This document shows positions 26,396-48,501 of a DNA stretch of 55,613 nt, in pieces (the first letter of the stretch is position 1; each line of letters begins with the position of its first letter). This DNA comes from Massilia frigida (lineage in GTDB: Bacteria > Pseudomonadota > Gammaproteobacteria > Burkholderiales > Burkholderiaceae_D). The stretch lies in NCBI RefSeq assembly GCF_011682175.1, contig NZ_WHJG01000043.1, positions 1 through 55,613 of the forward strand, read 5' to 3'. Position numbers and translations under genes: made by a program. The notes under the pieces were generated by a model, which saw only the letters and a list, made by a program, of their open reading frames with translations, had not been told where the DNA came from and made no database searches.

Positions 26396-26569
26396 AATTG
26401 CCGCAAGCAGGTCCATGGACTGGCGCACATTCCACGAACGCGCGAAGGTTGATGGAGACTCCGCGCGGACCCCGGTCGTGGTCGTGGCGTTGTTGTGAGA
26501 GTAATCGGGGCTGTGTCGATGAACGCTATCGCGGTGCTGACTTCACGGCACGGAATTGACAGCCGCGAG

Positions 26570-26629
26570 AATCGGAATCGGAATCGGAGTCGGAATCGGA
26601 ATCGGAATCGGAATCGGAATCGGAATCAA
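26570..26629. repeat. Hexanucleotide tandem repeat (AATCGG)n
   Basis: Nine consecutive 6-base units AATCGG (one is AGTCGG) from 26570 to 26623, plus AATCAA at the end. On the minus strand it reads as Ile-Pro codons, but no gene context supports translation. Confidence 0.95.
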
Positions 26630-26709
26630 GGTTCGATTCGCGCATCCATTTGCCTCATTCAGTGATATCGACGTCGGGTGTGCACGCATACCGTGGTGGC
26701 ATTGATTAG

Positions 26710-26950
26710 GAAGGTGCAAACGCGGGCACGCTGTCCTTAGAGAAGGTGCCACGCGGACACCTGTGATCGGAGAAGGTGAAACGCGGACACGCTGTTTTTA
26801 GGGAAGGTGCAAACGCGGAGACGCTCTCATTAAGGGAGGTGCAGCGCGGACATCTGTCATAAGAGAAGGTAAAACGCGGACACGCTGTTATTAGAGAAGG
26901 TGCAGACGCGGACACGCTGTCATTAGGGGAGGTGCAACGCGGGGCAGGTT
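26710..26950. repeat. 31-bp tandem repeat with 93-bp higher-order period
   Basis: Eight imperfect units of about 31 bases, each starting GAAGGTG or GGAGGTG and containing ACGCGGACACGCTGT-like sequence. Unit starts are 26710, 26742, 26772, 26803, 26835, 26865, 26896 and 26928. Spacings repeat as 32, 30, 31, so every third unit matches best (period 93). There are no unique spacers, so this is not a CRISPR array. Confidence 0.88.
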
Positions 26951-44488: not shown

Positions 44489-44571
44489 GCCAGTACCGCT
44501 TACTTAATCGACTGTAAAGACAGCGCACCGGCGAATATGCCACGGGTGCGAATTTGGAAAGATTCAATCAC

Positions 44572-44838
44572 ATGACCAATCGCAGATTTCCGGAAGATCC
44601 GACCTACGATCCGAATAAAGTGCTCGATGCCATCATTGAGCGCTTGCAGCTCAAAAACGACGCGGCCCTGTCGCGCGCACTGGAAGTGGCGCCGCCCGTG
44701 ATCAGTAAAATCCGCCACCGCACCTTGCCGATTGGCGCGACGATCCTGTTGCGCATGCATGAAATCAGCGATTTCAGTATCCGGGAATTGCGCGCGATGA
44801 TGGGCGTGCCCGCAGTGAGCATCAATATCAACGCCTGA
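44572..44838 (+). CDS. Small HTH-like DNA-binding protein
   Basis: An 88-residue protein whose region DAIIERLQLKNDAALSRALEVAPPVISKIRHRTLPIGATILLRMHEISDFSIRELRAMMG has the pattern of a Cro/CI-type helix-turn-helix (LSRALEVAPPVISKIRHRT as the recognition part). It is probably a transcriptional regulator with no ligand domain. The start at 44572 gives MTNRRFPED; an in-frame TTG lies at 44554. A terminator-like hairpin lies in the leader. Target unknown. Confidence 0.7.
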   Translation: MTNRRFPEDPTYDPNKVLDAIIERLQLKNDAALSRALEVAPPVISKIRHRTLPIGATILLRMHEISDFSIRELRAMMGVPAVSININA

Positions 44839-44854
44839 GGCTGGGCAAAAGAAA

Positions 44855-44875
44855 AGGGGCACTGTGTGTGCCCCT
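44855..44875 (-). terminator. Intrinsic terminator of the AWC-repeat gene, minus strand
   Basis: Stem AGGGGCAC (44855-44862) with GTGCCCCT (44868-44875), loop TGTGT. Read on the minus strand it is followed by TTTTCTTTTG. It lies 163 bases past the AWC-repeat gene's stop at 45039. Confidence 0.75.
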
Positions 44876-45038
44876 CGACATTGCAACCGGATCGCTTCAG
44901 GATCTTGCGGGGCGTCCGCCCAGGTCATCGACCTCGTGCGCGCAACCGCCTCGCCATCCCTCTTTCTTGCCGCTCGCATTGTCGTTCGAATCAACGGCCC
45001 TGCGCGTGTTCCAACCCGCAGTGCCTTCCAGCCCATGC

Positions 45039-46169
45039 TTACGCCGGCTGCGGATTGCCGTGCGCGATAGACTGGATCAGCGCCGCCGTTGCCGCGCTCA
45101 CGCGCATGGCATGGGCTGCCGCGGACGGCTCGACGGTGCTGGACGCCGCCGCGCCGACGCCCGGTAGTCTCGTCTTGACGCACCACGCCGACTTGAGCGC
45201 AGCGGGAGTGCCCTTGACGCACCACGCCGACTGTAGTGTAGCCGGGGCCGCCTTAGCGCACCATGCCGCCGTGCGCGCAGCGGGAGCTGCCTTGACGCAC
45301 CACGCCGATTCGAGCGCGGCGGGAGCCGCCTTTGCGCACCATGCCGACGTGAGCGCAGTGGGAGCCGCCTTTGCGCACCACGCCGATTCGCGCGCAGCGG
45401 GAGCCGCTTTTGCGCACCACGCTGATTCAAGCGCAGCGGGAGCCGCCTTTGCGCACCACGCCGATTCGCGCGCAGCGGGAGCCGCTTTTGCGCACCACGC
45501 TGATTCGAGCGCAGCGGGAGCCGCCTTTGCGCACCATGCCGACGTGAGCGCAGCGGGAGCCGCCTTTGCGCACCACGCCGATTCGAGCGCAGCGGGAGCC
45601 GCTTTTGCACACCACGCCGATTCAAGCGCAGCAGCAGCAGCCTTGGCGCACCACGCCGACTTGTGTGCAGCGGGAGCGGCCTTTGCGCACCACGCCGATT
45701 CGAGCGCAGCGGCAGCCGCCTTGGCGCACCACGCCGATGTGGGCGCTACCGGCGCCGCCTTGGCGCACCAGGCTGCGGCGCGCTGGCCATACGGCTCGTC
45801 GAATACCTGTTCATACAGATCGCGCATGCGGTCGGCGCCCGCTTGCAGCACTTGCGCATCGTCGTGCGCGCCGCTCATGCCAACGTACGGGTAGTGGTGC
45901 AGGAAGTAGCCAAACGCTTGCTCGCAGTCTTTCGCGTACTTCATCGTGTCCAGGATATGGTAGTGCCAGAAAATATCGACTTCCACCAGTGGCGAGGTGT
46001 CTTCTTCAGGGAACGCTTTCATCAGATACAGGAAACGGCGATATTCCACTTCAACGGCCTCGGCTTTTTCCAGGGACCAGCCTTCGCCGGATTCCACGTG
46101 CATGAGCTTCATTTTGATCGGTTCCAGATCGAGTTCCGAGATTGCTTTGATTGCGTCGTTGGTCATCAT
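45039..46169 (-). CDS. GRDP-like (PF07173-type) protein with C-terminal 13-residue AWC repeats
   Basis: A 376-residue protein. The N-terminal 130 residues resemble the glycine-rich-domain-protein-like family: WSLEKAEAVEVEYRRFLYLM, then VDIFWHYHILDTMKYAKDCEQAFGYFLHHYPYVGM, with an invariant-looking His/Trp cluster (WHYH, HHYP). Residues 133-330 are about sixteen 13-residue repeats (consensus SAWCAKAAPAALE), each with one Trp-Cys pair and a Lys; a Ser/Ala/Val tail follows. There is no signal peptide. GAGGC precedes the double Met start. I cannot assign a function: the tail could be a repeated-core peptide precursor, a metal- or thiol-binding module, or a structural stalk. No modifying enzyme is adjacent. 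Confidence 0.75.
   Translation of the reverse strand: MMTNDAIKAISELDLEPIKMKLMHVESGEGWSLEKAEAVEVEYRRFLYLMKAFPEEDTSPLVEVDIFWHYHILDTMKYAKDCEQAFGYFLHHYPYVGMSGAHDDAQVLQAGADRMRDLYEQVFDEPYGQRAAAWCAKAAPVAPTSAWCAKAAAAALESAWCAKAAPAAHKSAWCAKAAAAALESAWCAKAAPAALESAWCAKAAPAALTSAWCAKAAPAALESAWCAKAAPAARESAWCAKAAPAALESAWCAKAAPAARESAWCAKAAPTALTSAWCAKAAPAALESAWCVKAAPAARTAAWCAKAAPATLQSAWCVKGTPAALKSAWCVKTRLPGVGAAASSTVEPSAAAHAMRVSAATAALIQSIAHGNPQPA
45174..45773 (-). repeat. 39-bp coding tandem array (about sixteen AWC units)
   Basis: Units of exactly 39 bases with GCGCACCACGCC on the plus strand, so all three frames on both strands stay mostly open. The reading frame is fixed by continuity with the conserved N-terminal domain on the minus strand. 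Variation is mostly at residues 9-12 of the unit (PAALE, PAARE, AAALE, PAALT). Confidence 0.93.
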
Positions 46170-46456
46170 GATTAAGCCTCTTTTTTAGAGTTGTGATTGA
46201 TTTATGTGCTACATCCCTGTTTGATCCTGCGGGTGCTACGGCTGTTGTAAAGCAATCGCCTCCTTCCTTTCCTCTGGTAAATCAATTGCCCGATTACATT
46301 GATTTCCGTTACTGTTTGAGGATGTTGCGCCGGTCCAAACGCCGCTTCTTGACTTAGCTCAATCATTAATTGAGGTAATTCCTAGCGGATACCGGATGCT
46401 CCGACTGTGCCGCAGGTCATTCAAGAGGATTCTGTTTAGGACAATGCCTGGCGTCA

Positions 46457-48319
46457 TCAGACAAACGCGGCATGCGATTCGTTTTTGCCGGATGCGGTGT
46501 CGGCCGGGCCGCCACGCGAAGGTTCGTTGTGCAGGGGCACGCTGACGCACACCGTGGTGCCGTCGCCGCCGTGGCTGGAGATGGAAAACGAGCCGCCGAG
46601 GATGCTGATCCGTTCTTCGATGCCGACCAGGCCGAACGAGCCGACCTTGCCCTGTTCGCCGGCTTGCAGGCCGATGCCGTTATCGGTCACCGTCATCGAC
46701 AGGCGATTTCCGCTGAGCTTGAGTTCGACGCGGACCCTGGTCGCTTGCGCATGGCGCACGATATTGCTCAGCGACTCTTGCAAGATGCGGAAAAAGGCCG
46801 TGGCGGCATGGTCATTGAGCGCGACTTCCTTCGGTTCATCGATCAGTTCGCAGGCGATGCCGGTGCGGCGCTTGAATTCGGCGATTTGCCATTCGACCGC
46901 CGCCGACAAGCCCAGGTCGAGCACGTTCGGACGCAAGTCGTTGATGATCTGGCGCACGCTCTTGATGGTGGCGTCGATCTGCTGCAAGGTCGAGCGCGCG
47001 CGTGCGTGCAGGCGCGGATGGCGCTCGCGCGTGCGCGAACTGAGCATGTCCGCTTCGATGCGCAGCGCCAGCAGGTTTTGCCCGAGGTCGTCGTGGATTT
47101 CGCGCGCGATGCGCTTGCGTTCGCCTTCCTTGATCTGGTCGGCGTGGGCCGCCAGACGGCGCAGGTTCTGGTGCGACAGTTGCAGCTTGGCCTGGCTATC
47201 GCGCAGTTCGCGCGTCATGCCCTTGGCCATCTTGATGGCGCGCCGGCGCGACGAGGTCAGCGCATGGAACAGCGCGTACAGCAGCATCGAGCTGACCGAG
47301 CCGGCCATCAACGCCAGCCAGGGCGCGAATTCCTCGAAGGCGGTGTACATTTCGGTGGTGTCGACGCTGAAGGTCGCATCCCACGGACGGCCGTTGAAGT
47401 CGATCGGCAGGGTGGCGCTGAAGCGGCTTGGCGGCATCAGGAACGGTGCCAGCGTATTCTCGTCGGCCGGATGGCTGTCGAACAGCACGCGTCCGCGCCG
47501 CCGGTCGACCCCGATTGCGTTATCGACCAGGGTCATGCGCACATTCTTGATGGGAATTTCATCGATCACGCCCTGCACCAGCTTTTGCACGCTAAAGGCG
47601 ATCCCGACCGTGCCGATGTAGGCTGCACGGCGCTGCTCGGTGGTGGTGGTGGGAGCGTGCGGCTTGTACACCGGCAGCCGCATCGCCAGTCCGGTGCGCT
47701 TCGGTCCCGAGATAAACGAGACCGGCATGCCCGAGGGGATCAGCTTGCCGGTATCGCGCATGCTGGCCAGCGTGTCGTGCACCAGGGGATTGGCGAGCAG
47801 GTCGTAGCCGAGCGTGGCGGCCCAGGGTTCTTCCGGCTCGGTAAAGGTGACCACGGTGTAGGTCGGACGGTGCCCGGGCGGCTTGATCGCAAACGCTTCC
47901 GGCGCCAAACCGTCGGCCACGCGCTCGTCGCGCATGCGCCGCAGGAAGGCGTCGCGCTCGGCATCATGCACCAGCTGGGCGTAATTGATGTTTTCGATGG
48001 CGGGGAAGTTGCGCGTCACGTCCAATCCCTTCACATAGCCATGGAATTGATGGCGCGTGAGTGGCTCGCTGATCTGGAACAGGCTGACCGTGCCGCGCAA
48101 CACGTGGGTGTACGACTTGATGCGGGCGCTGATGGTATTGCGGGCGTTTTGCGCCAGGCCGGCGAAACGGGTGCGCGAATCGGCTTCGATAGAATTGGCG
48201 GTCGCAAAGTAAAGCACCATGCCGACCGCCAGCGAGAAGGGCAGGCCAACCCATAGGGCAGGACGTGCCATAGAGAATGTTTTTATAGTTGTCTTTAAAG
48301 TAAGCATTGCGCGTTGCAT
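46457..48319 (-). CDS. CHASE-domain sensor histidine kinase (NarL-type HisKA_3)
   Basis: About 620 residues. An N-terminal membrane helix (LWVGLPFSLAVGMVLYFA) is followed by a periplasmic CHASE domain (EPLTRHQFHGYVKGLDVTRNFPAIENINYAQLV, TYTVVTFTEPEEPWAATLGYDLLANP). A second helix (LALMAGSVSSMLLYALF), then a HisKA_3 box with the phospho-His in RKRIAREIHDDLGQNLLAL, and the HATPase domain (FFRILQESLSNIVRHAQA, DNGIGL, GLVGIEERI) follow. It senses a small ligand and phosphorylates a response regulator, but no regulator lies nearby. Starts at 48349, 48319 and 48307 are all possible; GAAAGGA abuts 48319. Confidence 0.88.
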   Translation of the reverse strand: MQRAMLTLKTTIKTFSMARPALWVGLPFSLAVGMVLYFATANSIEADSRTRFAGLAQNARNTISARIKSYTHVLRGTVSLFQISEPLTRHQFHGYVKGLDVTRNFPAIENINYAQLVHDAERDAFLRRMRDERVADGLAPEAFAIKPPGHRPTYTVVTFTEPEEPWAATLGYDLLANPLVHDTLASMRDTGKLIPSGMPVSFISGPKRTGLAMRLPVYKPHAPTTTTEQRRAAYIGTVGIAFSVQKLVQGVIDEIPIKNVRMTLVDNAIGVDRRRGRVLFDSHPADENTLAPFLMPPSRFSATLPIDFNGRPWDATFSVDTTEMYTAFEEFAPWLALMAGSVSSMLLYALFHALTSSRRRAIKMAKGMTRELRDSQAKLQLSHQNLRRLAAHADQIKEGERKRIAREIHDDLGQNLLALRIEADMLSSRTRERHPRLHARARSTLQQIDATIKSVRQIINDLRPNVLDLGLSAAVEWQIAEFKRRTGIACELIDEPKEVALNDHAATAFFRILQESLSNIVRHAQATRVRVELKLSGNRLSMTVTDNGIGLQAGEQGKVGSFGLVGIEERISILGGSFSISSHGGDGTTVCVSVPLHNEPSRGGPADTASGKNESHAAFV

Positions 48320-48501
48320 TCCTTTCGGTAGCCGCAAATGGCGATGCATTGTTTGATCAACATTAACCGGAAGTAAGTTGTCAGAATACCTAGTCGAGCT
48401 GATAGGTATGGAGATCGGAAAAGTCTGAATATCGAAAGAATCCCACCACAGCAGTGAGCAGGGCGGGATTCGGGGGAAAAAATGTCGTGTTTTGGCAACG
48501 T

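Follow-up and report, generated by a model that had tools for sequence, protein, structure and literature searches.

The locus studied here raises the question of what a protein that ends in a long run of short Trp-Cys units is for, and with which other gene, if any, it works. The window, i.e., the whole 55,613 bp stretch of Massilia frigida DNA that was analysed, carries the repeat gene at 45039..46169 on the negative strand. It starts with ATG and encodes 376 aa arranged as a GRDP-like N-terminal domain, an array of 16 AWC[A/V]K units and a C-terminal tail. A combination of Tandem Repeats Finder and a degenerate DNA pattern placed the array at 45174..45773 (negative strand) with a period of 39 bp; the program alone reported 15.2 copies at 45179-45770, with 81% matches and 0% indels. 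The array observation is real: the protein contains 16 AWC triplets, whereas 10,000 shuffles of its tail gave 0.51 on average and never more than 5. An earlier note on this DNA had described an exact 39-bp array of about 16 units, and both the unit number and the exact period stood, although the copies are not identical. Its further statement that variation is limited to residues 9-12 of the unit did not hold, as the last units vary between the Cys and residue 9 too (AWCVKGTPAALK, AWCVKTRLPG). The degenerate AWC[A/V]K pattern had 24 matches in the genome of origin (7.79 Mb in 255 contigs, an Oxalobacteraceae, Massilia-like genome), 16 of them inside the repeat gene, which is single-copy there. 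The nearest named relatives, among the 120 best of 937 retrieved proteins, were from Massilia, e.g., M. antarctica, and the proposed comparison of repeat number between strains (M. antarctica and close Massilia) gave 11 units in P0001 versus 9 in P0002 and P0004. Modelling yielded no trustworthy structure of the tail, with low confidence over much of it. Note that the strand opposite the array can be read as a 342-aa open frame with AHHAD repeats (44866-45894, positive strand), in our view a by-product of the GC-rich 39-bp period. Elsewhere in the window there is a run of 9.8 copies of the hexamer GAATCG (26569-26627) and, apart from it, a 93-bp unit repeated in tandem (26705-26942; 2.6 copies, 84% matches).

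The N-terminal domain, residues 1-124 (45798..46169, negative strand), was delimited with an 18-row alignment and the model of the relative P0142. Its proposed resemblance to the GRDP-like family was borne out by clear homology to annotated relatives (glycine-rich domain-containing proteins, with E values to 1e-200), but the match to the PF07173 profile lay near the limit: 22.3 bits where the curated cut-off is 22.7, or 24.0 bits, above the cut-off, in the genome search, and covering only the last third of the profile. Public pre-computed annotation assigned PF27765 to the listed relatives. The domain belongs in this family (PF07173, PF27765), whose members outside Oxalobacteraceae differ in having no array (L145, L146, L147); the cyanobacterial and other relatives shown differ also in having two GRDP-like domains, four with a Gly-Cys-rich end. 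In P0240-P0246, one of which is named as a cyanobacterial MAG, two GRDP-like domains occur per chain and, in four of those shown, the Gly-Cys-rich stretch comes after hydrophobic segments. Residues H24, W31, H69, H71, D74, Y78, C82, H91 and H92 were invariant in the 18 rows, and the His, Cys, Trp and Asp residues among them (H24, W31, H69, H71, D74, C82, H91, H92) suggest a metal site. The P0142 domain was modelled as six helices (mean pLDDT 89.9, pTM 0.84), and fold searches with this model returned no convincing PDB neighbour.

Relatives were collected by a protein search (937 relatives, best 120 used), an N-domain profile search (3232 proteins, best 120 used) and a scan of named genomes, from which the best 80 of 301 confirmed stretches were kept, corresponding to 77 distinct loci. 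The latter, within those best 80, came from Massilia, Telluria, Duganella, Pseudoduganella, Rugamonas, Janthinobacterium and near kin. The N-domain gene was found in 199 of 392 Oxalobacteraceae genomes and in 13 of 44 genera, some matches being remote only; a scan at the order level gave N-domain matches, mostly weak, in 43 of 300 genomes. Pooling the listed proteins and the loci gave 356 distinct sequences, of which 335 had at least 4 units, 2904 units in total. The array core A-[W/Y/F]-[C/S]-[G/A] was present in 335 of the 356 relatives retrieved, and the short-peptide, multi-core layout that had been proposed was supported in that the array is conserved together with the N-domain across the family. 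One protein with His replacing the aromatic residue (P0269, an AHSG array) represents a kind of gene that lies outside these counts, and a single gene, L114, combines two cores, SYS and AWC, in each unit of a composite repeat.

The composition of the 2904 units was T 56% or A 19% at position -3 relative to the Cys/Ser, A 97% at -2 and G 57% or A 26% at +1. The search pattern fixed the aromatic residue and the C/S and left the A at -2 free, so the percentages at -1 (W 41%, Y 38%, F 21%) and 0 (C 58%, S 42%) represent choice and not conservation. Across 33,050 residues from first to last unit in 330 genes, 96.4% of W, 97.9% of Y, 97.2% of F and 98.8% of C lay inside A-[WYF]-[CS] units, with 2817 perfect units against 31 near-misses; the spacing between units ranged from 6 to 34 residues. 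Selection was estimated from within-gene pN/pS between units in 102 genes (named loci plus the window), where positions -2 to 0 are fixed by the pattern and uninformative. The ratios were 0.12 at +1, 0.26 at +2, 0.17 at +3 and 0.46 at +4, and 0.53-0.75 at -6 to -3 and +5 to +7. The array reading had been tied to repeats being conserved in N-domain relatives and under purifying selection, and both were found: the repeats are present, and pN/pS at +1 to +3 (0.12-0.26) is well below that at -6 to -3 (0.53-0.75). As far as unit comparisons go, we showed that the core [T/A]-A-[W/Y/F]-[C/S]-[G/A] is conserved and that the spacers drift.

Arrays were all-Cys in 174 genes, all-Ser in 142 and mixed in 19 (n = 335), and most of the mixed ones listed had a single odd site. 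Ser codons in the units were TCN in 625 cases and AGC in 1, and Cys codons were TGC in 363 and TGT in 36, a codon usage consistent with Cys/Ser switching through one TGC-TCC step and subsequent homogenisation. A quickly built kinase tree for 61 single-array pairs requires 3 or more Cys/Ser switches and 11 or more aromatic changes. Sequence comparison shows the arrays to be internally homogenised and to switch as whole arrays, both at the Cys/Ser position and at the aromatic one (W, Y or F).

The earlier note had stated that no maturase, protease or transporter adjoins the repeat gene. None was found in the window; the statement overlooked, however, an adjoining sensor histidine kinase of 630 aa (46457..48349, negative strand), located 287 bp upstream on the same strand, which we propose as the cognate receptor. 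It matched CHASE (E 4.7e-35), HisKA_3 (1.3e-13) and HATPase_c (1.3e-12), and its CHASE sensor domain, residues 97-277 (47519..48061, negative strand), is the part whose divergence tracks the array (see below). Of the 77 named loci (from the best 80 of 301 stretches), 76 had a similar kinase upstream, in the orientation of the repeat gene, by tblastn; in the remaining one, L065, the contig ends 662 bp before the repeat gene. Larger stretches were taken for 12 further loci (L164-L175) representing distant or odd members, and 9 of them had a CHASE-region match near the GRDP gene. In other genera the kinase was placed divergently from the repeat gene (L164, L167, L169, L170 and L171), and in L165 the kinase output was replaced, the neighbour 53 bp upstream being CHASE-PAS-GAF-GGDEF-EAL. 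L173 had a CHASE kinase beside a GRDP gene without array, L174 a kinase-region match only, and L166 a GGDEF-EAL gene at the contig start and nothing more; L172, with a 3-unit array, had no CHASE match within 14 kb. No such kinase was near three array-less GRDP relatives outside the family (L161, L162, L163). The gene maps show that the repeat gene keeps company with a CHASE sensor despite changes of orientation and output domain. At the genome level, the best CHASE match was no better than E 5e-35 (about 33% identity) in 21 genomes without an N-domain match, and E 4e-63 or better in 7 genomes with the repeat gene. CHASE relatives are not always array-linked, since paralogues of 1011-1017 aa with an EAL-like motif (L188:4305-7346, L189:5971-9024 and L190:3996-7031, in G000, G005 and G192), 36-40% identical to the sensor part of the kinase, had no array gene nearby.

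Other common neighbours found by clustering were glnS, a small HTH-like ORF and housekeeping genes. In the window the small ORF (44554-44838, positive strand, 94 aa, no Pfam match) is convergent with the repeat gene, a position conserved in many named loci. Between kinase and repeat gene, a conserved block of about 48 bp (46289..46336, negative strand), possibly a promoter or regulator site, was largely preserved in 4 aligned relatives; outside the genome of origin, an 18-base stretch from it recurred in L002, L003 and L004 only. The palindrome CTCAAT-N5-ATTGAG (46358-46374), put forward as a candidate operator, was not kept in the 4 relatives aligned. As for a terminator proper to the gene, there is indeed a terminator-like hairpin downstream (44854..44876, negative strand), but this single site does not exceed the shuffle mean of 1.8.

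We also inspected which part of the kinase varies with the array. In 58 single-array pairs, partial Mantel tests, which do not fully remove phylogeny, gave r = 0.30 (p = 0.001) for array and CHASE given kinase and N-domain, and r = 0.25 (p = 0.001) after thinning to 41 pairs. The corresponding value for array and kinase domain, given CHASE and N-domain, was r = -0.07 (p = 0.92). Array and N-domain, given the rest, correlated at r = 0.47 (p = 0.001), as expected because both lie in one gene.

Duplicated pairs offered a closer view. Kinase and repeat gene were co-duplicated in 7 named loci, three times in L005 and twice in L006, L007, L012, L017, L045 and L053, and in all 7 each pair had a different array. 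Nine within-locus kinase comparisons gave protein identities of 51-64% for CHASE, 77-83% for the linker, 90-100% for HisKA_3 and 93-100% for HATPase; at the DNA level the tandem kinases were 0.60-0.71 identical in CHASE and 0.92-0.99 in the kinase part. Between species, CHASE identity averaged 0.80 over the 123 comparisons in which kinase identity was 0.95-1.00. Paralogues that differ in their arrays had N-domains 0.81-0.99 identical in DNA, 0.96-0.99 in four comparisons and up to 0.98-0.99 in L006, L007 and pairs 2 and 3 of L005. These alignments show that CHASE and array diverge in duplicated pairs, and that the kinase domain, and in several genomes the N-domain too, stay alike; the pattern resembles the outcome of gene conversion acting on kinase and N-domain and leaving CHASE and array untouched. 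A separate observation concerns L077:5748-7658, an otherwise normal CHASE kinase whose kinase region gives a poor alignment (0.56-0.58 DNA identity), probably because of a frameshift or truncation.

Each of the 15 tandem kinases was compared with its paralogue in the same genome and with the kinase of another species that has the nearest CHASE domain; the array was nearer to the latter's in all 15, with only a narrow margin for pair 3 of L005 (0.32 versus 0.35). Linked inheritance predicts much of this result, so the informative part is the contrast with the kinase domain: with the neighbour chosen by kinase domain instead, the array was closer in 8 of the 15, within 0.01 in 2 and farther in 5. 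The AYCAGPR array of L007 is paired with a CHASE domain nearest the AYCASPR group, so the type cannot be read from the initial letters of the unit by themselves. Nor is the pairing of kinase and array strictly 1:1, given that downstream of 20 of the 81 aligned kinases lie two repeat genes whose arrays differ (distances 0.15-0.68); a 21st two-gene case, in L053, looks like one frameshifted gene. Where two arrays follow one kinase, a single receptor may take both ligands, or the second array may be read by something else. The earlier interpretation is partly supported by these results, in that the multi-core layout holds; the important fact is the linked CHASE sensor together with its co-variation with the array.

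Taken together, the linkage and the alignments suggest that the repeats and the membrane sensor diversified together, as parts of a peptide signalling or self-recognition system. We consider it an even chance that the array is the specificity-bearing part of a ligand, or a multicopy ligand precursor, for the adjacent CHASE sensor. CHASE domains are extracellular sensors, placed outside the membrane by standard topology. Array-derived peptides would bind CHASE in the periplasm, with a separate sensor for each type; the homogenised kinases would report to one common, putative response regulator; and the GRDP-like domain would carry, protect or process the array. Release is one weak point of this ligand reading, because there is no export signal and no linked exporter or protease: 0 of 107 family proteins reached a hydropathy of 1.6 over 19 residues, the threshold used for an export signal or membrane helix, and no protease or transporter was present among the conserved neighbours inspected. 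The likeliest routes to the periplasm would be lysis, as in a kin-lysis alarm, or an unlinked exporter, and release on lysis would require neither exporter nor protease. The other weak point is that 20 of 81 kinases precede two different arrays. Also counting against this reading are the share of linked inheritance in the CHASE-array match, the general tendency of sensor domains to change faster than kinases, the correlation of array and N-domain, the imperfect mapping of array labels (L007), the narrow margin of pair 3 of L005, the CHASE-EAL paralogues without an array gene and the exceptions L172, L173 and L166. A fuller version, to which we give somewhat less than an even chance, is a Gram-negative self-recognition system in which a signal-less cytoplasmic protein would store up to 19 lineage-specific A-aromatic-[C/S]-small peptides, released by lysis or another route and read by the cognate CHASE receptor; array conversion (Cys to Ser, Trp to Tyr to Phe) would create new signal types, and tandem duplication would provide 2-3 channels into one kinase output.

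The repeat protein could instead be the product that the kinase regulates, an intracellular or surface protein that is structural or adhesive or forms condensates, its aromatic residues acting as stickers and its Ala-rich stretches as spacers, in which case the gene would be controlled and the protein not sensed. A regulator beside its target is common in general, the 6 to 34 residue spacing resembles that of sticker-and-spacer chains, 96-98% of the array W, Y and F lie within the motif, and the low-confidence model over much of the tail and the absence of an export signal are in keeping with it. We nevertheless judge this explanation rather unlikely, as it predicts neither that CHASE, rather than the kinase, follows the array nor that CHASE is kept when the output becomes GGDEF-EAL. 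A cytoplasmic multivalent scaffold, whose units would be docking motifs for another protein and whose link to the sensor would be indirect, has in its favour the repeated short linear motifs in a cytosolic protein without signal sequence; it is improbable in our estimation, given that the array co-varies with CHASE, outside the membrane by standard topology, and not with the cytoplasmic kinase.

Between these two in probability, and still unlikely, is a multi-core RiPP precursor, with the N-domain as an oversized leader and the units modified by an unlinked enzyme and cut out to yield an antibiotic, a metallophore or a signal. Many identical short cores on one conserved leader-like domain were indeed found, Cys/Ser exchange would suit azole formation, and the genome of origin has 3 YcaO and 2 MNIO matches. 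Against this, a modifying enzyme was absent from the conserved neighbours, and the +1 residue is mostly Gly or Ala. The enzyme search covered YcaO and MNIO; among 52 chosen genomes with a strong N-domain match, YcaO was present in 51 and MNIO in 47, so neither is universal. Four of the 5 genomes without MNIO (G126, G058, G115, G045) have arrays, which makes a general need for MNIO unlikely. The earlier note had also mentioned a thiol or metal-binding store, for which the 16 Trp-Cys units of the window gene would be suitable. As a family role this finds no support because 142 of the 335 repeat genes have all-Ser arrays of the same architecture and hence no conserved Cys ligands; as the kinase tree (61 single-array pairs) also calls for 3 or more Cys/Ser switches, we regard a store on Trp-Cys repeats as very improbable.

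The ligand reading can be compared with known peptide systems. In agr, the groups are set by a hypervariable region that spans agrB, agrD and agrC (PMC10482373), and agr-like Gram-positive systems share with the present one a peptide gene beside a sensor kinase and a concentration of the variation in the peptide and the sensor part of the receptor. A peptide gene adjoining a sensor kinase, as in peptide-pheromone systems, was found in 76 of the 77 named loci, and co-variation of peptide gene and receptor sensor in duplicated as well as single pairs, linked inheritance being part of the match. The differences are that here there is no linked AgrB-like gene and no export signal on the carrier, that there are up to 19 units instead of one, and that the sensor is of CHASE type, the host Gram-negative and the ligand putative. 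The kinase-array pair may be of the peptide ligand with sensor kinase kind, an unproven assignment; we set it apart from agr-like systems because neither linkage nor sequence revealed an agr-type processing or export route. RRNPPA systems (Rap-Phr) have several copies of a short signal peptide per propeptide beside the receptor gene (PMC11343458) and resemble the AWC array in these multiple copies on a tandemly duplicated propeptide. Their propeptides are secreted, their receptors are cytoplasmic regulators and they belong to Bacillota; here, in contrast, a transmembrane kinase is the candidate receptor, and an array usually has 4 to 19 units. A precedent for a CHASE-type sensor kinase with small-peptide recognition is DhkA of Dictyostelium, which is reported to recognise the small peptide SDF-2 (PMC1863423). 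That system differs in being eukaryotic. The SDF-2 precursor is not known to be a repeat array. No account of a system combining such an array with a CHASE sensor was found in the literature searched.

If the ligand reading is true, Massilia, Duganella, Janthinobacterium and other genera would have a widespread ligand-receptor system in which the candidate ligand sequence is written 4 to 19 times per gene. The identity of CHASE ligands, the evolution of signal types and kin recognition would then be open to tests with synthetic peptides, and natural receptor-peptide pairs would be available for the study of specificity shifts. Even without signalling, the gene-wide switching of Cys/Ser and of the aromatic residue of the motif is a striking case of concerted evolution under constraint.
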